From positions 1-32,361 of the forward strand of contig PMML01000054.1 of NCBI GenBank assembly GCA_003162695.1: a DNA stretch of 32,361 nt, written 5' to 3'. Origin of the DNA: Ignavibacteriota bacterium. GTDB lineage: Bacteria > Bacteroidota > Ignavibacteria > UBA10030. A model generated the notes under the pieces. The model did not search any database, had not been told where the DNA came from, and saw only the letters and a program-made list of their open reading frames with translations. Position numbers and translations under genes: made by a program. This document shows positions 22,594 to 31,766 of the stretch, piece after piece; the first letter of the stretch is position 1, and every line of letters starts with the position of its first letter.

Positions 22594-24666
22594 ATGATCA
22601 AAGAATTTAAACGCATACTTGTTACGGCCGCTTTGCCTTATGCAAACGGCTATCTTCACCTGGGGCATCTTGCCGGCGCCTATCTTCCGGCCGATATATA
22701 CGCCCGCTATCAGCGTTTAAAGAAACGCGAAGTTCTTTTTCTTTGCGGTTCTGACGAGCATGGGGTTGCTATTACCGTCTCTGCGGAAAAAGAAAAGATA
22801 ACCCCTCAAGCCATTATCGACCGCTATCATCCGGCGAATAAATCGGTTTTTGAAGCATTTGAAATGAGCTTCGATAATTATTCTCGCACATCCCTGCCTT
22901 TGCATTATAAAACAACGACTGAATTCTTTACGGAATTCCATAAGAACGGCATTGTTCTGGAAAAAAAGGAACAGCAGCTGTTTTGCGAAAAAGATTCTCT
23001 GTTCTTAGCCGATCGGTATGTCGAAGGAACATGCCCGAATTGTAAATCAACGCAGGCACGCGGAGATCAATGTGAAAATTGCGGGACGTGGATCAATCAG
23101 GTCGATCTGATCGATCCAAAGTGCAAACTCTGCGGAAGCACGCCGGTTATCCGCGAAACGCTGCACTGGTATTTTCCGCTTGGAAAGTATCAAAAGAGGC
23201 TACAGGAATATATTAAAAATGCAGATGAGCGGGATGGGTGGAAAGAAAATGTTCTGCGTTATTGCGAGGGCTGGTTCAAGGATGGATTGCAGGACCGTGC
23301 AGTGACACGCGATCTTACCTGGGGAGTTCCTGTTCCGGTGAAAGGATTTGAACACAAAGTCATTTATGTCTGGTTCGATGCTGTGCTCGGGTATATTTCA
23401 TCCGGCAGGGAGTGGGCAGCCGGAAAAGGAACCCCTGACGCATGGAAAAAATATTGGCTCGATCCGGAAACAAAATATGTCCCTTTTATCGGCAAAGACA
23501 ATATCGTATTCCATTGCATCGTTTTTCCTGCTATGCTCATGGCATGGAATGATAGCGGAAAAGAACAATATATTCTGCCGGCAAATGTTCCCGCCAACGA
23601 ATTTTTGAATTTCGAAGGACAAAAATTTTCAAAGAGCCGCGGGTGGGGAATCGACGTTCAAGATTTCCTGAAGTTTTTCCCCGCTGATACGATTCGTTAT
23701 GCACTTGCCGTCAATTTACCGGAAAAAAGCGACAGTGATTTCTATTTGAAAGACTTTCAGGCGCGCGTCAACAATGAACTTGCAGATATCGTTGGAAATT
23801 TTATCAATCGTACCATTGCATTTACAGAAAAGAACTTCGAAGGCAAAGTTCCGAGTCCCGGTACATTGAATTTACTCGATGCTGAAATGATCTCTAAAAT
23901 CAAGAAAATACCCGGGATGGTCGGACTATCATACGAACAGTACAGATTCCGCGATGGTTTGATGGAAACAATGAACCTTGCTCGATCTGCCAATAAATAT
24001 TTCAACGACAGCGAGCCTTGGAAGACCAAAAAGTCAAATCCTGAACAATGTGCAGCTACGCTGTACGTTTCCCTGCAGGTTGTCCGTACGCTGGCAATAT
24101 TGCTGGCACCTGTCATTCCTTTTACGGCTGATAAAATTTGGAAACTTCTCAAGATGGATTCGGTGTTGTATCAGGACGGCTGGGATTCTGCGGCAGATAT
24201 TCTGCTTGAACCCGGCCATATTTTAGATAGACCTGAAATATTGATTCAAAAGATTGAGGATAAGCGTATCGAAGAAATTATCAAATTTTTAGAAGATGGC
24301 AGTGAGAAAACGCCGAAACCTGAAGCCGCGCCGATCAAGCCGGTTATAACGATCGACGATTTTTCAAAACTTGATTTACGCATTGCAAAAGTCCTTCAAG
24401 CAGAGAAAGTTCCTAAATCGGAAAAACTTCTGAAACTTCGGGTCGAGCTTGGATCCGAACAACGGCAGATTCTTGCCGGTATCGCAAAAAAATATGAGCC
24501 GGAGGATTTGATCGGAAAATCGGTTGTTATCGTTGCAAATCTGCAGCCTGCTAAACTTATGGGGCAGGAATCGCAGGGGATGATCTTGGCGGCAAGCGAT
24601 GCGAACGGAGACATGAAATTGATCGAACCGAACGGTGAAATGCCTGCCGGTTCGATTGTCAAATAA
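22594..24666 (+). CDS. metG: methionine--tRNA ligase with C-terminal tRNA-binding domain
   Basis: This class I MetRS charges initiator and elongator tRNA-Met. The HIGH motif is H22-L-G-H25 (NGYLHLGHLAGAYL). The KMSKS loop is K344-FSK-S348 (KFSKSRGWGI), with Phe replacing Met, a common variant in this enzyme. Two zinc knuckles are visible (CPNC...CENC and CKLC). The C-terminal 110 residues, beginning ITIDDFSKLDLRIAKVLQAE, form the Trbp111-like OB-fold that binds tRNA and dimerises the enzyme. The 690 residues fit the E. coli-like architecture. It is the last informational gene before the quinone block; the next gene starts ten bases later. Confidence 0.97.
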   Translation: MIKEFKRILVTAALPYANGYLHLGHLAGAYLPADIYARYQRLKKREVLFLCGSDEHGVAITVSAEKEKITPQAIIDRYHPANKSVFEAFEMSFDNYSRTSLPLHYKTTTEFFTEFHKNGIVLEKKEQQLFCEKDSLFLADRYVEGTCPNCKSTQARGDQCENCGTWINQVDLIDPKCKLCGSTPVIRETLHWYFPLGKYQKRLQEYIKNADERDGWKENVLRYCEGWFKDGLQDRAVTRDLTWGVPVPVKGFEHKVIYVWFDAVLGYISSGREWAAGKGTPDAWKKYWLDPETKYVPFIGKDNIVFHCIVFPAMLMAWNDSGKEQYILPANVPANEFLNFEGQKFSKSRGWGIDVQDFLKFFPADTIRYALAVNLPEKSDSDFYLKDFQARVNNELADIVGNFINRTIAFTEKNFEGKVPSPGTLNLLDAEMISKIKKIPGMVGLSYEQYRFRDGLMETMNLARSANKYFNDSEPWKTKKSNPEQCAATLYVSLQVVRTLAILLAPVIPFTADKIWKLLKMDSVLYQDGWDSAADILLEPGHILDRPEILIQKIEDKRIEEIIKFLEDGSEKTPKPEAAPIKPVITIDDFSKLDLRIAKVLQAEKVPKSEKLLKLRVELGSEQRQILAGIAKKYEPEDLIGKSVVIVANLQPAKLMGQESQGMILAASDANGDMKLIEPNGEMPAGSIVK

Positions 24667-24676
24667 TCAGGACAGC

Positions 24677-25519
24677 GTGAAAAAAATAAAAAGTATAACG
24701 GATTTTGTTAAAATTGAGCATACTCTTTTTTCTTTACCGCTGATTTTCGCCGGCGTATTTTTAGCTTCACCAAAGCCTCCTTCGCTGAAACTGATCATGC
24801 TCATTCTTGCCGCTGCTCTTGGAGCCCGGACGACGGCTCTGGCTCTGAATCGAATTATCGACCGGCATATCGATAAACGCAATCCGCGAACGACCGACAG
24901 GGAGTTGCCGAGCGGAAGGATGCCTCTTGGCGGGGCATTTATTATTCTTATCGCTGGCTTTGCGTTGTATGAATTCAGCGCAAAATTAATATCTCCTTTT
25001 TGTCTTGCTCTCTCTCCGATTCCGCTCGCAATTTTTCTTATCTACCCATATATGAAACGCTTTACCTCGTTCGCGCATTTTGGCGTAGGATTCGGATTAT
25101 CGATGGCGCCGCTCGGCGGATGGTTTGCAGTCAAAAATACAGCCGAAGGAATGCTCCCCGGATTGCTGCTATCGCTTTTTATGGTTTTCTGGGCCACCGG
25201 TTTTGATGTCATCTATTCAACGCTTGATGAGGCATTTGATCGGGGAGAGAATCTTTATTCCTTTACTTCACGGTACGGACGAAAACGTGCATTAAAAATT
25301 TCAGCGTGCCTGCATGTTTTATCTTTTGCCGTACTGGTAGGTCTTTTTACGCTGCAAATCCGCGCTTTAGCGGCTCTGCCGCTGCTCATTGTTTCCGGAT
25401 ACCTTTTATATCTGGAGCACAGGAAAGCCGAAGATGTTGAGCTGGCGTTCTTTAGAATAAATGCTGTCATCGGTTTTGCGGTTCTTGCAATGGTGCTGGC
25501 AGGAGTGTATTTTCCATGA
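24677..25519 (+). CDS. mqnP: UbiA-family prenyltransferase, probable MqnP
   Basis: This integral membrane aromatic prenyltransferase attaches the polyprenyl chain to the naphthoate-type intermediate of futalosine-route menaquinone synthesis. The first Asp-rich motif is N58-RIIDRHID66; the second is D177-VIYSTLDEAFD188. About seven to nine hydrophobic helices are distributed over 280 residues (for example LIMLILAAALGARTTALAL and FIILIAGFALYEF). The GTG at 24677 gives KKIKSITDFVKIEHTLFSLP, the normal family start, with AGGA at 24669-24672. Longer starts overlap metG. Assignment as MqnP rather than UbiA for ubiquinone rests on the neighbours: ubiX, ubiD and three mqn genes follow. Confidence 0.9.
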   Translation: MKKIKSITDFVKIEHTLFSLPLIFAGVFLASPKPPSLKLIMLILAAALGARTTALALNRIIDRHIDKRNPRTTDRELPSGRMPLGGAFIILIAGFALYEFSAKLISPFCLALSPIPLAIFLIYPYMKRFTSFAHFGVGFGLSMAPLGGWFAVKNTAEGMLPGLLLSLFMVFWATGFDVIYSTLDEAFDRGENLYSFTSRYGRKRALKISACLHVLSFAVLVGLFTLQIRALAALPLLIVSGYLLYLEHRKAEDVELAFFRINAVIGFAVLAMVLAGVYFP

Positions 25520-26067
25520 GGATTATCGTCGGAGTGACCGGGTCATCCGGGGCGATTTTTGCTAAGGAATTTTTAAGGCAATGTGAAGCGGAAAAATTTC
25601 TTATTATAAGCAAATGGGGAAAAGTGGTCGTGAAGGAAGAACTCGGCATTTCTGAAAAAGAATTCGCTTCTTTTGCAAAGAGGCAGTTTTCAGATGATGA
25701 CTTGACCGCTCCTTCTGCATCAGGATCCAACAGATTCGATGCTATGGTGATTCTTCCTTGTTCAACATCTACAGTAGGAAAAATAGCATCCGGAATAGGG
25801 GATACACTTATCACGCGCACTGCTCAGGTTGCATTAAAAGAGCGGTATCGTCTGATTCTCTGCATACGGGAAACTCCGCTTTCTACCATTACGCTTGAAC
25901 AATGCACAAAAATTTCGGCTTGCGGTGGGATGATTATGCCGATTTCTCCTCCTCTTTACTTTGTTCCGAATTCCGTCCAGGAATATATTGATGCTTATAT
26001 TGCCAAATTGCTCGGTGTTCTCGGCCTGCGTGAATCAAAAGGGTGGCGTTCCGGAGATTTGGAATAA
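25516..26067 (+). CDS. ubiX: UbiX-family flavin prenyltransferase
   Basis: UbiX makes prenylated FMN, the cofactor required by UbiD decarboxylases, from FMN and dimethylallyl phosphate. The FMN-binding start RIIVGVTGSSGAIFAKEFL, the middle MVILPCSTSTVGKIASGIGD and the signature LCIRETPLSTITLEQ are all present. The 183 residues are normal. The ATG overlaps the mqnP stop as ATGA. The UbiD gene follows with a one-base overlap (TAATG), so enzyme and cofactor maker are translationally linked. In futalosine-pathway genomes this gene is often named mqnM. Confidence 0.95.
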   Translation: MRIIVGVTGSSGAIFAKEFLRQCEAEKFLIISKWGKVVVKEELGISEKEFASFAKRQFSDDDLTAPSASGSNRFDAMVILPCSTSTVGKIASGIGDTLITRTAQVALKERYRLILCIRETPLSTITLEQCTKISACGGMIMPISPPLYFVPNSVQEYIDAYIAKLLGVLGLRESKGWRSGDLE

Positions 26068-27887
26068 TGCAGACGTTTCCGGCGCTTGGCGAATTTGTTC
26101 GGTATCTGGAGTCTATCGGTGAGCTCAGAAGAATCAAGAAGGAGGTTGATCCTTTTCTTGAAATAACCGAAATTGCCGCACGATCTCTCCGTGAAGGCAG
26201 ACAGGCTCTTCTTTTTGAAAATGTAAAAGGTTCACCGTTTCCCTGTGCTGTCAATGTTTATGCTTCGGAACGCCGGATTGAAATCGCTCTGGGCAGGCAT
26301 CCGGAACAGATCGGCGAAGAACTCATAAATTTTGCAGAAAGATTGTTTCCACCCAAACCTTCGGAGCTATGGAAGAATCGATCGATGCTTCTTCGCATTC
26401 TTCATTCTCAATCGCGAAAAGTTGCATCAGGATTTTCCCAGTCCATTGTTCTGTCTCCCGATCTCAATGTGCTGCCGCTTCAAACCTGCTGGCCCGGCGA
26501 TGGCGGTCGTTTTATTACGCAGGGGCAGGTCGTTACGTACGATCCGGTCGATGGAAAGAGGAATATTGGAATGTATCGTATGCATGTGTATGATGCCGTT
26601 ACAACAGGCATGCATTGGCAAATTCAAAAAGGCGGTGGATTCCATTATCATCATGCGGAACAAATGAATCGGGCACTTCCGGTTTGCGTTGCTCTCGGAA
26701 CAGATCCGGCATTGCTGCTCGCAACGATCGCGGCTTTACCGGAAGGTATCGACGAGGCAATGTTTGCTGCATTTTTAAGAAATAAAAGAATTCCATTTGC
26801 ACGCGGGAAAAGCATCGGCGTCGATGTCCCGTCTCGGGCTGAGTTCATCCTGGAAGGAAATGTGTACCCCGGCGAGCGCAGAGAAGAAGGACCGTTCGGA
26901 GATCATTTAGGCCATTATTCCCACGCATCGCTGTTTCCGGTTTTTCATTTAAAAGCTCTTACACATCGTCATCATGCAGTATACCCTGCAGCGGTTGTCG
27001 GCGTTCCGCCTCTGGAAGATAAATTTCTGGGGGATGCGACACAGCAAATTCTTTCTCCATTGATCAGGCTTCTTCACTCGGAAATTCGGTCGATGTGGGC
27101 GTATTACGAAGCGGGTTTTCATAATCTGCTCGTTGTTTCGACGGAAGCACGCTATAAAAAAGAAGCAATGAAAACCGCACTTGGATTATTGGGGACAGGT
27201 CAATTATCGTTGACCAAATGCATGGTCCTGGTTTCGGAAGAGGTCGATCCGAAAAACTGGTCTTCCGTTCTGAAGGAAATTCATGAAAATTTCGATCCGC
27301 ATTTCGACTTTATGCTGCTTCCGAATGTTCCGCTTGATACTCTCGACTTTACAAGTTTTAATTTGGAACTGGGAAGTAAAATGATTTTAGATGCGACGAG
27401 AAAACAGAGCAGGAAGCACGAACAAAAGAAGCGAGATGAGCGGATTACCGGCCTGAAGCGCTCGCTTATCTCCAAGGTTATTTCTTCCGATAAAAGAATC
27501 ATAGACGCAGAATCGTGGGAAGAAACTCTGCTTGTTGTCAAAATCCGTTCCAGCGGTTCAGCATCGAGCGGATCACAATTAAACGGAAGACCAGTTCTGG
27601 AGAAATTGCTTCGGAACCGGGAATGTCAGATTTTCAGCATCATTGCGGTTGTGAGCGAAGATGTCGATGTGAGAGATCGAGTGAACTCGATTTGGGGAAT
27701 ATTCACGCGATTTGACTGTCAGAGGGATGTGATTTTTACGGATCAAAAAATGTCGGGAATTTCTCCGCTCTATTCGGGTGTTATGGGAATAGATGCAACG
27801 TGGAAAAAAGGATATCCGGACCCTCTTGTTATGGATCCCGATGTCGTGTGCAGAGTCCATTCACAATGGGAAGAATTTTGGAAGTAG
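26067..27887 (+). CDS. ubiD: UbiD-family menaquinone biosynthesis decarboxylase (MqnL type)
   Basis: This prFMN-dependent decarboxylase probably removes the carboxyl group of the 1,4-dihydroxy-6-naphthoate-type intermediate. Conserved UbiD blocks are GRFITQGQVVTYDP, RNIGMYRMHVYD with the downstream HWQIQKGGGFHY, LEGNVYPGERREEGPFGDHLGHY, which supplies the catalytic E-R-E residues, and EDKFLGDATQQ. The 606 residues are longer than E. coli UbiD (~490) and match the SCO4490-type family used in the futalosine route; the extra length is mainly a C-terminal segment. The ATG at 26067 shares one base with the ubiX stop; a GTG at 26043 would add eight residues. Confidence 0.93.
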   Translation: MQTFPALGEFVRYLESIGELRRIKKEVDPFLEITEIAARSLREGRQALLFENVKGSPFPCAVNVYASERRIEIALGRHPEQIGEELINFAERLFPPKPSELWKNRSMLLRILHSQSRKVASGFSQSIVLSPDLNVLPLQTCWPGDGGRFITQGQVVTYDPVDGKRNIGMYRMHVYDAVTTGMHWQIQKGGGFHYHHAEQMNRALPVCVALGTDPALLLATIAALPEGIDEAMFAAFLRNKRIPFARGKSIGVDVPSRAEFILEGNVYPGERREEGPFGDHLGHYSHASLFPVFHLKALTHRHHAVYPAAVVGVPPLEDKFLGDATQQILSPLIRLLHSEIRSMWAYYEAGFHNLLVVSTEARYKKEAMKTALGLLGTGQLSLTKCMVLVSEEVDPKNWSSVLKEIHENFDPHFDFMLLPNVPLDTLDFTSFNLELGSKMILDATRKQSRKHEQKKRDERITGLKRSLISKVISSDKRIIDAESWEETLLVVKIRSSGSASSGSQLNGRPVLEKLLRNRECQIFSIIAVVSEDVDVRDRVNSIWGIFTRFDCQRDVIFTDQKMSGISPLYSGVMGIDATWKKGYPDPLVMDPDVVCRVHSQWEEFWK

Positions 27888-27889
27888 TT

Positions 27890-29752
27890 ATGGAGATACA
27901 TTTCCGGGATATAAATCTTGAGCCCGTCTGGCAAAAAGTCCGAAAGGGGAACCGATTATCCGCTGAAGACGGATTAAGGCTCCTCGCAACCAACGATATC
28001 ATTTCGCTCGGCAAGATGGCGCACTTTGTTCAAAAACAGAGAAGCGGTGATGCGGTTTACTTTGTCTTGAATCAAAAAATCGAACCGACGAACGTTTGTG
28101 TCTTATCGTGTAAGTTTTGCGACTTTGCCGTAAAACAAGGTGACGCGAAATCTTATGAAATGACGATCGAAGCAATTCTCGGAAAGCTTACCTCCGACAT
28201 TCAGGAAGTGCATATTACGGGCGGTTTGCATCCGGATTGGGAGTGGGAATACTATCTCGATATGCTGCGGCGTATTCGTGAAAAATATCCGCATGCGGAT
28301 ATCAAAGCGTTCACGGCGGTCGAAATCGATTTTTTCCATAGGAAATTCAAAATATCGATTGAAGATGTTTTGCGGCAATTAAAAGAAGCCGGACTTCGAA
28401 CGATGCCGGGAGGCGGAGCGGAAGTGTTTTCAGAGCGTGTGCGAAAGGAACTCTTCCCTCAGAAGATAGGAGCCGAGCAATGGCTGGCCATTCATCGAAC
28501 CTCTCATAGACTGGGGATCCCGACAAATGCAACGATGCTATACGGTCATATCGAAACGATGGAAGAACGGGTACATCATCTTCTCAAACTCCGGGAATTG
28601 CAGGATGAGACGCATGGATTTCTTTCTTTTATCCCATTAGCTTTTCAGCCGGGGGAAACCGGTATTAAGCCTTCTGATCAATATACATCGGCTATCGACG
28701 ACCTTAGGGTGATTGCCGCCTCGCGGCTGATACTCGATAACATTCCGCATATCAAGGCCTATTGGGTTATGCTGACGGAGGATGTTGCATCCATAGCTTT
28801 AAATTTCGGGGCAGATGATATGGATGGAACGGTGGGAGGTGAGCGCATCGCGCATGATGCAGGTGCGATAAGTCCGTCAGTGCTGGCAAAAGAACAAATC
28901 GTTAAAATTATTCGTGATGCAGGAAAGATCCCGGTGGAACGGGATATCTATTATAATCCGCTTCGTCTATACGGCGAACATGTAGTAGGAAAAATTCCGT
29001 ATTTGAATTCCGTGCCATTCTATGCAAATATCGAACAGCGGAAATTCAAGATTTTGCCGGTTTCTCCCCGTCGAATGGGTGATCTATCTTCAAGGGGGTA
29101 TCTGGATGCCGGTCTTTTTTCTTTGGTCGACTATCTGCAGCAGCAGACGAAACTGGAAGCTCTTGATTATTGCATTGCAACGAGAGATCAAGTGAAAAGT
29201 GTAATGCTCTTCACAAATCATGACTGGCAAAGCCTCCAGGGCAGGACCATTGGTATTGTCGACGACACGGCAACTTCCGTTCAACTCTTGCGGGTTTTGT
29301 TGAAAAATAAATACGGAGTACATGCACATTTCCAGCGCATGAATTCCGGTGTGAACGAGTATCGGTCGTTCGATGCTGTACTGTTGATCGGAGATGAGGC
29401 TCTCCGTTGCCAAAAGCACGGTCTTGCTGGTTTTGAGTTGATTTATGATCTTGCATCGGAATGGTACGAATGGAAAAAACTTCCATTTGTATTTGCAATA
29501 TGGGCGGTACAAAAAGCGGTGCAGCCGGACATGAAAGCGGAATTGATCGAAATTCTGCAAGCCTCTCTCAAAAAAGCGGAACAAAATTATACTGAGGCAG
29601 GCGCTCTGCATGCGAAAAGCATCGGCCTCACAGGGCAGGAATGCGATGAATATCTGGAAGGATTTAACTTCCGTATCGGCGCTCGTGAGCGTGCAGCTAT
29701 TGCAGAATTCGAAAAACTTTTAATAGATTTGGAAGTAATGGAAAGAGTCTAG
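27890..29752 (+). CDS. Fused aminofutalosine synthase-chorismate dehydratase (MqnE-MqnA)
   Basis: One 620-residue chain carries the first two enzymes of the futalosine pathway. Residues 1-~360 are MqnE, a radical-SAM enzyme with the cluster motif C70-x3-C74-x2-C77 (CVLSCKFC), VHITGGLHPDW, and TMPGGGAEVFSERVR. Residues ~365-620 are MqnA, chorismate dehydratase, starting GKIPYLNSVPFYA at 367 and containing GLFSLVDYLQ, LLIGDEALR and LASEWYEWKKLPFVFAIWA. The frame is continuous with no stop or shift, and the junction has almost no linker. MqnA acts first (chorismate to carboxyvinyl-oxybenzoate) and MqnE second, so the fused order is the reverse of the reaction order. The ATG at 27890 lies two bases after the ubiD stop. 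Confidence 0.93.
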   Translation: MEIHFRDINLEPVWQKVRKGNRLSAEDGLRLLATNDIISLGKMAHFVQKQRSGDAVYFVLNQKIEPTNVCVLSCKFCDFAVKQGDAKSYEMTIEAILGKLTSDIQEVHITGGLHPDWEWEYYLDMLRRIREKYPHADIKAFTAVEIDFFHRKFKISIEDVLRQLKEAGLRTMPGGGAEVFSERVRKELFPQKIGAEQWLAIHRTSHRLGIPTNATMLYGHIETMEERVHHLLKLRELQDETHGFLSFIPLAFQPGETGIKPSDQYTSAIDDLRVIAASRLILDNIPHIKAYWVMLTEDVASIALNFGADDMDGTVGGERIAHDAGAISPSVLAKEQIVKIIRDAGKIPVERDIYYNPLRLYGEHVVGKIPYLNSVPFYANIEQRKFKILPVSPRRMGDLSSRGYLDAGLFSLVDYLQQQTKLEALDYCIATRDQVKSVMLFTNHDWQSLQGRTIGIVDDTATSVQLLRVLLKNKYGVHAHFQRMNSGVNEYRSFDAVLLIGDEALRCQKHGLAGFELIYDLASEWYEWKKLPFVFAIWAVQKAVQPDMKAELIEILQASLKKAEQNYTEAGALHAKSIGLTGQECDEYLEGFNFRIGARERAAIAEFEKLLIDLEVMERV

Positions 29753-29760
29753 CAGGATAT

Positions 29761-30558
29761 ATGTCGGAACATATTCTTAAACGATTCGAAGAGCTTGTCG
29801 AGGCGGGGAACAGACTTGCCCCTCAGGGGGGATTTGATTTTTCCGGTTATAATGCGCGTCTGCAAAATACATATTTGGAATGGCGCAAAGCGTGCCTTGA
29901 AATTTTAGAACTCTCCGGCCCGATCGGCATTCCCTATAAAAATAAAATTCTCAGCGATAAAAATGGAGGAGTTTTTTTCCAAATTTCCGCACTCTTGATT
30001 CTGCATTCGATACATGAATTGTATGCTAAACTCAAAGCTTCTCCGGAAATGGTATCTTCAGATGGAAAAGAATTACAGGAAAACCAGCCGTTGACGCAAA
30101 CCGTCTCGGATGGAGTTCGCGTGTTGAAGCCGCCGGTTAAAGCCGAAAAGGTACAAACCAGCCCTGCTGCTGCGCGTACTGTCTATATCATCGGGGAAAA
30201 AAACAGCCCGCTCTATGTACAACTGGCGCATTTTTTATTGGAGATTGGAATTGAAGAGGTGCTGATAGAAAGACAGCATGGAACGATGATTTCGTTTAAC
30301 ACATTTCAGGAACGGGCCGATATACGATTTGCATATTTTGTTCTGAATGAAGACGATCTTGGGTATGTGATGTTTGAAATAGGTCATTTGGTCGGCAAGC
30401 TGGGATCAGGGCATGTTTGTGTATTATGCAAATCAGAAGTGAATTTTCCCGGCAATATCCCCGGTATCAGTGTTAAACGAATTGTTGTTAAGCTGGAAGA
30501 AGCCGGATTCGAATTGATGAAAGAATTAAAAGCAGCAGGATATACCGTCAATATTTAA
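29761..30558 (+). CDS. Predicted TIR-like (CAP12/Pycsar-type) nucleotide-binding domain protein
   Basis: This is a 265-residue soluble protein. Residues ~141-265 resemble the TIR-like domain of predicted nucleotide-binding proteins (PF10137 type). They begin VYIIGEKNSPLYVQLAHFLL, continue with TFQERADIRFAYFVLNEDD and MFEIGHLVGKLGSGHVCVLCK, and end MKELKAAGYTVNI. The glutamate in the place of the TIR catalytic residue is E206 (VMFEIG). The usual Arg/Asn-rich stretch just before it (commonly R-x-N-V-x-FE) is shortened to DDLGYVMFE. Residues 1-~95 are a helical domain with W41 (EWRKACLEILEL), of a kind often seen ahead of such TIR domains; a low-complexity linker covers ~100-138. It starts eight bases after the mqnE-mqnA gene, inside the menaquinone operon. 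Function is unknown; NAD cleavage is only a family possibility. Confidence 0.72.
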   Translation: MSEHILKRFEELVEAGNRLAPQGGFDFSGYNARLQNTYLEWRKACLEILELSGPIGIPYKNKILSDKNGGVFFQISALLILHSIHELYAKLKASPEMVSSDGKELQENQPLTQTVSDGVRVLKPPVKAEKVQTSPAAARTVYIIGEKNSPLYVQLAHFLLEIGIEEVLIERQHGTMISFNTFQERADIRFAYFVLNEDDLGYVMFEIGHLVGKLGSGHVCVLCKSEVNFPGNIPGISVKRIVVKLEEAGFELMKELKAAGYTVNI

Positions 30559-30671: not shown

Positions 30672-31766
30672 ATGACAGTTGCAGAGATAGAAAAAAATAT
30701 TCGAAACGGCATTCGGATGACGAAAGAAGAGGGGGTTTTCCTGCTCCGCAATGCAGAAATTCTCGATCTTGGCGCTTTGGCAAACGAGATTCGTTTTAAA
30801 AATAACCCAAAACCGTATGTGACGTATGTACTGGATACAAATCCGAATTATACGAATGTTTGCACTGTCGATTGTATCTTCTGTGCGTTTTATCGTCATC
30901 CGGGTGAAGAAGGAGTCTACACTCGTACGGTGGATTATATGATGGAAAAATTCAAAGAAGCTGCTCGTAATGGAACGACGACTGTCCTTCTCCAAGGGGG
31001 TGTAAATCCCGATTTGCCGTTCGAGTATTATCTGGAGCTTGTTGAGCGGACGGTAAAAGAGGTTCCGCAGATTTTTCCGCATTTCTTTTCGACTTCTGAA
31101 ATTCTTATCATGTCGAAAGTGTCCGGATTCAGCGTTCATACCGTTCTGGAAAAATTATGGGAAAAGGGATTGCGATCCCTGCCGGGCGGGGGAGCGGAAA
31201 TACTCTCCGATAGAGTAAAAAAGAAAATCAGCGGCAAAAAAGGGACTTCTGACGATTGGATTCGCGTTATGAGAACTGCGCATCGGATCGGGTATAAAAC
31301 GACCGCTACGATGATGTACGGGCATCTGGAAGCAGATGAGGATATCATAACGCATCTGGATGCTGTACGCGCCTTACAGGACGAGACAGGCGGCTTTACG
31401 GCCTTTATTCCGTGGTCGTTCAAGCCCGGTAATACGCCGCTGGAAAAGATTATACCGCATTATGCATCGCCACTGCGATACCTTCAAATGATTGCCTTGT
31501 CGCGCATCTATCTGGATAACTTCCGGCATATACAAGGATCGTGGTTTTCAGAAGGGAAAAAAATAGGCCAGATATCGCTTCACTTTGGAGCAGATGATTT
31601 CGGCGGGGTTTTAACGGAAGAGAATGTTCATGCCTCTGCAAAGTTTGTGAACAAGACGAGTGCCGAGGGATGTAAGATGCTTATCCGAGAGTCCGGTTTT
31701 CTGCCTGCCCAGCGTAATACCCTTTATGATATTCTCAACATCGATGATGTGCGGAAAGCAGTGTAA
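30672..31766 (+). CDS. mqnC: Cyclic dehypoxanthine futalosine synthase (MqnC)
   Basis: MqnC is a radical-SAM enzyme that cyclises dehypoxanthine futalosine to its spiro product in menaquinone synthesis. The cluster motif is C64-x3-C68-x2-C71 (CTVDCIFC). LLQGGVNPDLPFEYYLELV, SLPGGGAEILSDRVKKKI and TAFIPWSFKPGNTPLEK are family-diagnostic, and distinguish it from the related MqnE upstream. The 364 residues are normal. The start is ATG 30672. It is separated from the TIR-like gene by 113 bases, the largest gap in the menaquinone block; no clear promoter is visible there. An AAGGAGG site overlaps its stop. Confidence 0.95.
   Translation: MTVAEIEKNIRNGIRMTKEEGVFLLRNAEILDLGALANEIRFKNNPKPYVTYVLDTNPNYTNVCTVDCIFCAFYRHPGEEGVYTRTVDYMMEKFKEAARNGTTTVLLQGGVNPDLPFEYYLELVERTVKEVPQIFPHFFSTSEILIMSKVSGFSVHTVLEKLWEKGLRSLPGGGAEILSDRVKKKISGKKGTSDDWIRVMRTAHRIGYKTTATMMYGHLEADEDIITHLDAVRALQDETGGFTAFIPWSFKPGNTPLEKIIPHYASPLRYLQMIALSRIYLDNFRHIQGSWFSEGKKIGQISLHFGADDFGGVLTEENVHASAKFVNKTSAEGCKMLIRESGFLPAQRNTLYDILNIDDVRKAV

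Follow-up and report, generated by a model that had tools for sequence, protein, structure and literature searches.

A divergent TIR-like protein of the menaquinone operon in Ignavibacteria is retained under purifying selection after loss of the mqn genes

A gene for a TIR-like protein that lies among menaquinone (vitamin K2) biosynthesis genes in an Ignavibacteriota genome belongs to a family that persists under purifying selection in relatives from which the mqn genes have been lost. This retention and selection rule out both a futalosine-pathway enzyme and an operon passenger; the gene outlasts deletion of its mqn neighbors and so probably serves a function of its own. We hold with moderate confidence that an ancient TIR protein of the stand-alone kind was domesticated and passed on vertically to give this gene, and that its product would act as a non-hydrolytic nucleotide-binding sensor or scaffold, a function that we infer. 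The window, that is, the whole 32,361-nucleotide stretch of DNA analyzed (contig PMML01000054.1, assembly GCA_003162695.1), contains the following features, for which residue numbers refer to the TIR-like protein.

22594..24666, + strand: metG, anchoring the upstream side of the locus in the family of the window (identified by sequence, placed by tblastn context maps)
24635..25519, + strand: UbiA-family prenyltransferase, mqnP-like, start inexact (PF01040; TIGR01475 over cut-off)
25516..26067, + strand: UbiX-family flavin prenyltransferase (TIGR00421 over cut-off)
26043..27887, + strand: UbiD-family decarboxylase of the menaquinone route, start inexact (PF01977; TIGR03701 478.7 bits, just under cut-off)
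27890..29752, + strand: mqnE-mqnA fusion, mqnEA (TIGR03700 469.7 bits, over cut-off; VitK2_biosynth 166.9 bits)
29761..30558, + strand: TIR-like gene, 265 aa (open reading frame [ORF]; PF10137 28.6 bits, over cut-off; PADLOC PDC-S35 7e-19; conserved gene order)
29761..30045, + strand: N-terminal all-helical domain, residues 1-95, with SGYNARLQxxYxxWRK (AlphaFold2 model; 19 invariant columns)
30046..30171, + strand: variable, disordered Pro/Ala-rich linker, residues 96-137 (pLDDT < 50 at 100-134; low column identity)
30172..30555, + strand: TIR-like alpha/beta domain, residues 138-265 (PF10137 at 142-240; Foldseek 9lmq; hhalign probability 99.8)
30355..30372, + strand: shortened CC loop, residues 199-204, from which the RARQN-ending stretch of canonical relatives is deleted (alignments)
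30376..30378, + strand: E206 codon, whose residue aligns with the FE[FL]G-motif Glu of Cap12 TIR-STING (hmmsearch alignment to 9lmq and 7un8)
30672..31766, + strand: mqnC (TIGR03699 445.8 bits, over cut-off)

The locus thus reads metG, mqnP-like UbiA prenyltransferase, UbiX, UbiD, mqnEA, TIR-like gene, and mqnC. The TIR-like ORF, which begins with ATG and ends with TAA, follows the mqnEA stop at 29752 after a gap of 8 bases and ends 113 bases before the mqnC start at 30672. A preliminary description of this DNA had placed it 8 bases after an mqnE-mqnA fusion and upstream of mqnC, and the coordinates and the TIGR03700 and TIGR03699 matches agree. As listed, the mqnEA ORF starts at a GTG (27800) inside ubiD; the ATG at 27890 is the likelier start. 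The MqnE-MqnA fusion, present here (27890-29752) and in relatives, is order-wide and not peculiar to the families that bear the TIR-like gene. Promoter and terminator scans yielded background-level signals.

The C-terminal half of the protein is a divergent CAP12/Pycsar-type TIR domain. PF10137, the Pfam family of these domains, matches residues 142-240 at 28.6 bits against a cut-off of 24.7 (relatives score 24-46 bits), and hhalign pairs the profile of the family, hereafter the derived family, with canonical stand-alone relatives at a probability of 99.8. The top solved structure in Foldseek is the TIR-STING 9lmq (probability 1.00, E 1.5e-3), followed by general Rossmann-like folds. A search of solved structures with the single sequence found no match; in hmmsearch, the family profile matched Cap12 9lmq and 7un8 weakly, with their glutamate over E206. 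The preliminary description had assigned the C-terminal ~125 residues to this type and proposed profile and structure searches as a check; these return TIR matches (PF10137 and the Foldseek TIR-STING), and Pfam, PADLOC, profile-profile, and Foldseek results all agree.

In an AlphaFold2 model built from 34 relatives (mean pLDDT 79, pTM 0.48), residues 1-95 form helices at 3-19, 32-51, 57-64, and 74-93, with pLDDT mostly ~90; this domain has no Pfam match and corresponds to no known family. Homology to the N termini of canonical relatives was considered and set aside, as profile-profile comparison gave no support. Mean column identity is 0.43-0.44 in the linker versus 0.64-0.72 in both domains, and the arrangement of the domains in the model is uncertain. 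Sequenced phages provided one weak match to the protein and a viral fold search no meaningful one; a phage family of no known function, PHROG 16442, matches residues 129-263 at 2.4e-14.

Canonical relatives carry HGHD following the first strand and HEQPx(n)G[RK]T within the BB loop; their CC loop is long and has RARQN at its end, just before the glutamate. Every aligned member of the derived family has these motifs (HGHD, HEQPx(n)GRT, and RARQN) and the long CC loop replaced or deleted. A distinctive beta-hairpin in the CC loop characterizes CAP12/Pycsar TIRs (PMC13142454), and the derived family has lost the loop that bears it. E206, by contrast, is invariant in 34 of 34 aligned rows, as are D199, R171, WRK 41-43, and KLEE 244-247 across the derived family; in all, 34 columns are invariant across the two taxonomic families that carry the gene, the window's own (f1) and a second (f5). 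In the G049 copy, which lies outside the alignment, the glutamate appears by eye to be lost. Much of this had been anticipated from the single sequence: the glutamate is indeed kept, no aligned family member has the Arg/Asn stretch preceding it, and the active site is altered. Since the motifs and the CC loop are lost and E206 is kept, classical NADase activity is doubtful, although some catalysis could persist through the invariant Glu, Asp199, and Arg171.

These losses bear on one alternative, that the gene encodes a still-working stand-alone anti-phage effector of the PDC-S35 type hidden in a housekeeping operon. PADLOC matches the protein to PDC-S35 at 7e-19 (residues 95-264 only), the catalytic-type glutamate is retained, and canonical relatives occur sporadically and often on plasmids. 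However, PDC-S35 is a candidate single-gene defense family whose defense activity is itself a prediction, the protein lacks the defining motifs and the long CC loop, and the TIR-like gene is fixed and vertically inherited, unlike defense genes. No defense protein was detected by PADLOC among the nine neighboring proteins scanned, and the neighborhood contains no cognate cyclase of the kind that accompanies CBASS and Pycsar effectors, in keeping with the earlier remark that no defense gene was in view. The protein scores 16.5 bits against an NCBIfam Cap12 equivalog cut-off of 450. Because the motifs are lost and the gene is fixed, a role as an active NADase effector is disfavored. We consider a working effector improbable; the stand-alone defense gene offered among four initial readings is possible, but near-universal vertical inheritance and active-site motif loss weigh against it.

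Our survey of the order covered 98 genomes: 32 from f1, 22 from f5, and 44 from four other families. The derived TIR-like gene is present in 31 of the 32 f1 genomes (the exception is 55% complete), in 17 of the 22 from f5, and in none of the other 44, 38 of which have mqnC/mqnE. Five f5 genomes lack it: G040, G053, and G089, which have no mqn genes; G096 (82% complete), also without mqn; and G097, in which the contig ends beside mqnC. Wherever mqnEA and mqnC are both intact and the contig allows, the gene lies between them in f1 and f5. With both neighbors intact, most f1 copies lie -1 to 46 nt after mqnEA and 2-22 nt before mqnC, and in f5 the distance to mqnC is 5-143 nt; these short distances make co-transcription of the three genes likely. 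The mqnEA-TIR-mqnC order, which the preliminary description had wished to see surveyed, is thus kept in dozens of genomes, many more than chance would give, and its conservation in two families, combined with purifying selection, refutes the chance insertion also proposed there.

A scan of genome contigs with the family profile found the derived family in Ignavibacteria; the same scan with the single protein as query produced no match. Outside the order, only canonical-type relatives and no derived-type gene were found. A canonical stand-alone relative occurs in 14 of 296 genomes of the phylum and on many plasmids. In our tree, the derived family is one clade (100/100 support, stem of 1.27 changes per site) with inner clusters that follow genera, a pattern that points to a single origin and then vertical descent. 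Distance correlations of the TIR-like gene with mqnC, mqnEA, and metG are positive but modest (0.24-0.54), so it is the tree clusters and the fixed locus that carry the case for vertical descent. In G536, a canonical stand-alone PF10137 protein (L189 7321-8211), not encoded beside mqn genes, has a C terminus, EEIGVALIKELGAAGLKLEI, that resembles the derived family's; it is possibly the closest canonical relative.

Natural losses of the mqn genes separate the TIR-like gene from its neighbors. Neither MqnC nor MqnE is matched in seven f1 genomes (G010, G012, G014, G022, G023, G024, and G028), and mqnC is broken in G026. MenD does not reach cut-off in any of these eight genomes; its only match is in G053, in an unrelated context. 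In seven of the eight, the TIR-like gene persists in its usual place behind metG, which stays upstream in f1 even after mqn loss (tblastn context maps); among the seven are G010, G012, G014, G023, G024, and G028, all mqn-less. In G010, G012, G014, and G023, both flanks are cleanly gone, leaving metG, the TIR-like gene, an amidohydrolase, and UbiE/MenG, the last two being ancestral neighbors in f1. At least three lineages have lost every flanking mqn gene and retained the TIR-like gene. The loss of mqnC is recent in G026 and G028, and these two therefore add less evidence.

The TIR-like gene is under purifying selection without the mqn genes. The mqn-less sister species G014 and G023 have a common metG-TIR-amidohydrolase junction, so the loss was probably ancestral to both; between them, pN is 0.14-0.17, pS is 0.68-0.76, and dN is 0.15-0.19, with synonymous sites near saturation. 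Omega for other pairs is 0.07-0.19. A frameshift in the G015 copy and a single in-frame stop in that of G025 might suggest a neutral passenger or annotation artifact, whereas the split of the G023 gene is an assembly gap of N and not a true break. Purifying selection, the invariant columns across two families, and the conserved order refute that reading, to which we assign next to no probability.

The gene's placement also raises the possibility that the protein regulates menaquinone synthesis or use, or is an assembly partner dedicated to them; it would bind NAD(H) or a pathway nucleoside and tune the mqn enzymes or later MenA/UbiE-type steps. In every intact case, the gene sits between mqnEA and mqnC, and in f5 it is absent exactly where mqn is absent (G040, G053, G089, and G096), a pattern that would fit a menaquinone-specific role in that family and is a counterpoint to our preferred reading. 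The mqn-less f1 genomes, moreover, retain MenA-type prenyltransferases with UbiE/MenG nearby, and their menaquinone may come from a scavenged precursor. Nevertheless, 38 order-mates have mqn genes and no TIR-like gene, and G010, G012, G014, and G023 keep it with no mqn gene at the locus. We judge such a dedicated partner unlikely. The regulator or NAD-sensing partner of quinone synthesis first suggested is weakened by several mqn-less relatives that keep an intact, constrained gene and by most order-mates, which run the pathway without it, and it survives only in a broader form, concerning menaquinone use or respiration generally. The role may be tied to menaquinone in this wider sense, given the MenA-type prenyltransferases of mqn-less genomes.

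The prenyltransferases show changes of their own. G024 has a true MenA, and a MenA-like gene replaces mqnP beside the TIR-like gene in G024, G026, and G028. In three species of genus g8, the MenA-like prenyltransferases (L068 4874-5764, L070 8527-9417, and L071 10878-11768) are 95-100% identical, and the neighboring TIR-like genes differ far more; the MenA-like gene looks like a recent transfer that accompanied mqn loss, and a switch to scavenged 1,4-dihydroxy-2-naphthoate is possible. In G012, a MenA/UbiA-type prenyltransferase is fused to a PAS domain confirmed by Pfam (L163 1414-2685), and a prenyltransferase of this type in G010 (L170 1075-2349) has an N terminus similar to that fusion.

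We also weighed whether the protein might substitute for MTAN or MqnB as the absent N-ribosyl hydrolase for aminodeoxyfutalosine/futalosine, which would make it a TIR glycosidase recruited into biosynthesis. Cleavage of N-ribosyl bonds is an activity of TIR domains, and the gene lies between those for MqnE and MqnC, the preceding and following enzymes, matching the step at which MqnB/MTAN nucleosidases would act. The PF01048 set of its own genome comprises two purine nucleoside phosphorylases (PNPs; G000:C99:24051-24791, L052, and G000:C105:126-872, L053) and no MTAN or MqnB. Yet MqnB and MTAN belong to an unrelated sequence family, PF01048, which has no match in the TIR-like protein, and order-mates that have mqnEA and mqnC but lack the TIR-like gene do not differ in their PF01048 set (two PNP-like copies where inspected). 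Nor does the distribution suit a functional replacement, as the gene is absent from 38 mqn-bearing order-mates and survives under selection in genomes that have lost mqnE and mqnC. A futalosine-route step is therefore excluded as the general role, and we rejected the protein as an aminodeoxyfutalosine hydrolase, an idea that we consider very unlikely. Profile searches of 61 genomes turned up no MTAN or MqnB among their PF01048 proteins, and in six genomes besides the window's own the inspected copies likewise resemble PNPs. One of the two PNP paralogs is a candidate for the base-releasing enzyme acting on aminodeoxyfutalosine/futalosine in these Ignavibacteria.

Known systems offer partial parallels. 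Stand-alone PF10137 proteins (PDC-S35; L085 in G038, L084 in G020, and plasmid copies) likewise join an N-terminal extension to a C-terminal TIR of the same family and share the derived family's length class and C-terminal ELKxAG segment. These sporadic proteins retain the long CC loop together with HGHD, HEQPx(n)GRT, and RARQN, whereas the derived family has lost all of these, is core and operon-bound, and has an N-terminal domain without detectable relation to theirs. The best solved-structure match, the CBASS effector Cap12 TIR-STING (9lmq and 7un8), has a catalytic-type Glu that aligns with E206, but the TIR-like protein lacks a STING domain and a surrounding cyclase, and its TIR is C-terminal. 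The Cap12 BB-loop residues W34 and F39, named for NAD binding (PMC12421889), have no evident counterpart in it. Dictyostelium TirB, TirC, and TirD are domesticated, vertically inherited CAP12/Pycsar TIRs, and TirD has effects independent of its putative catalytic Glu (PMC13142454). They illustrate the kind of domestication proposed here, but they are eukaryotic, belong to no operon, and keep the CC-loop beta-hairpin, TirC being an active NADase (PMC13142454).

Among the four initial readings, a domesticated effector fits best. The ancestor would have been a sporadic stand-alone "nucleotide-binding" TIR protein (PF10137/PADLOC PDC-S35 type). In two families of Ignavibacteria the gene is fixed in its place between mqnEA and mqnC, arranged as an operon member; HGHD, HEQPx(n)GRT, and RARQN have been lost and the central glutamate kept, and purifying selection continues even in lineages with all mqn genes deleted. 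From homology, we predict that the TIR domain binds an NAD-like or ADP-ribose-like nucleotide and does not hydrolyze it fast; the N-terminal helical domain, which is conserved, may relay the nucleotide signal to a partner protein. In core physiology the protein would thus work as a redox/nucleotide sensor or scaffold; it would be neither a suicidal NADase nor a step of the futalosine pathway.

To our knowledge, bacterial TIR proteins are known almost only as suicidal or signaling immune enzymes, and a literature search of limited coverage found no paper linking TIR proteins and menaquinone. The domain is a known Pfam TIR, but the subfamily, motif-stripped, core, and operon-bound, is new. More tentatively, we suggest a TIR protein outside immunity: a core-genome, non-hydrolytic NAD-state sensor or scaffold that arose in a quinone operon and was later needed for itself, so that lineages discarding the operon lose what lies on either side and keep the gene. 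PADLOC and Pfam labels would mark this core gene as a defense gene, which calls for caution. The repeated natural loss of mqn with the gene retained provides a ready-made test that separates the gene's role from futalosine chemistry, and a monophyletic, motif-stripped TIR family, inherited vertically in a central-metabolism operon, would represent a bacterial case of an immune module domesticated for ordinary physiology.
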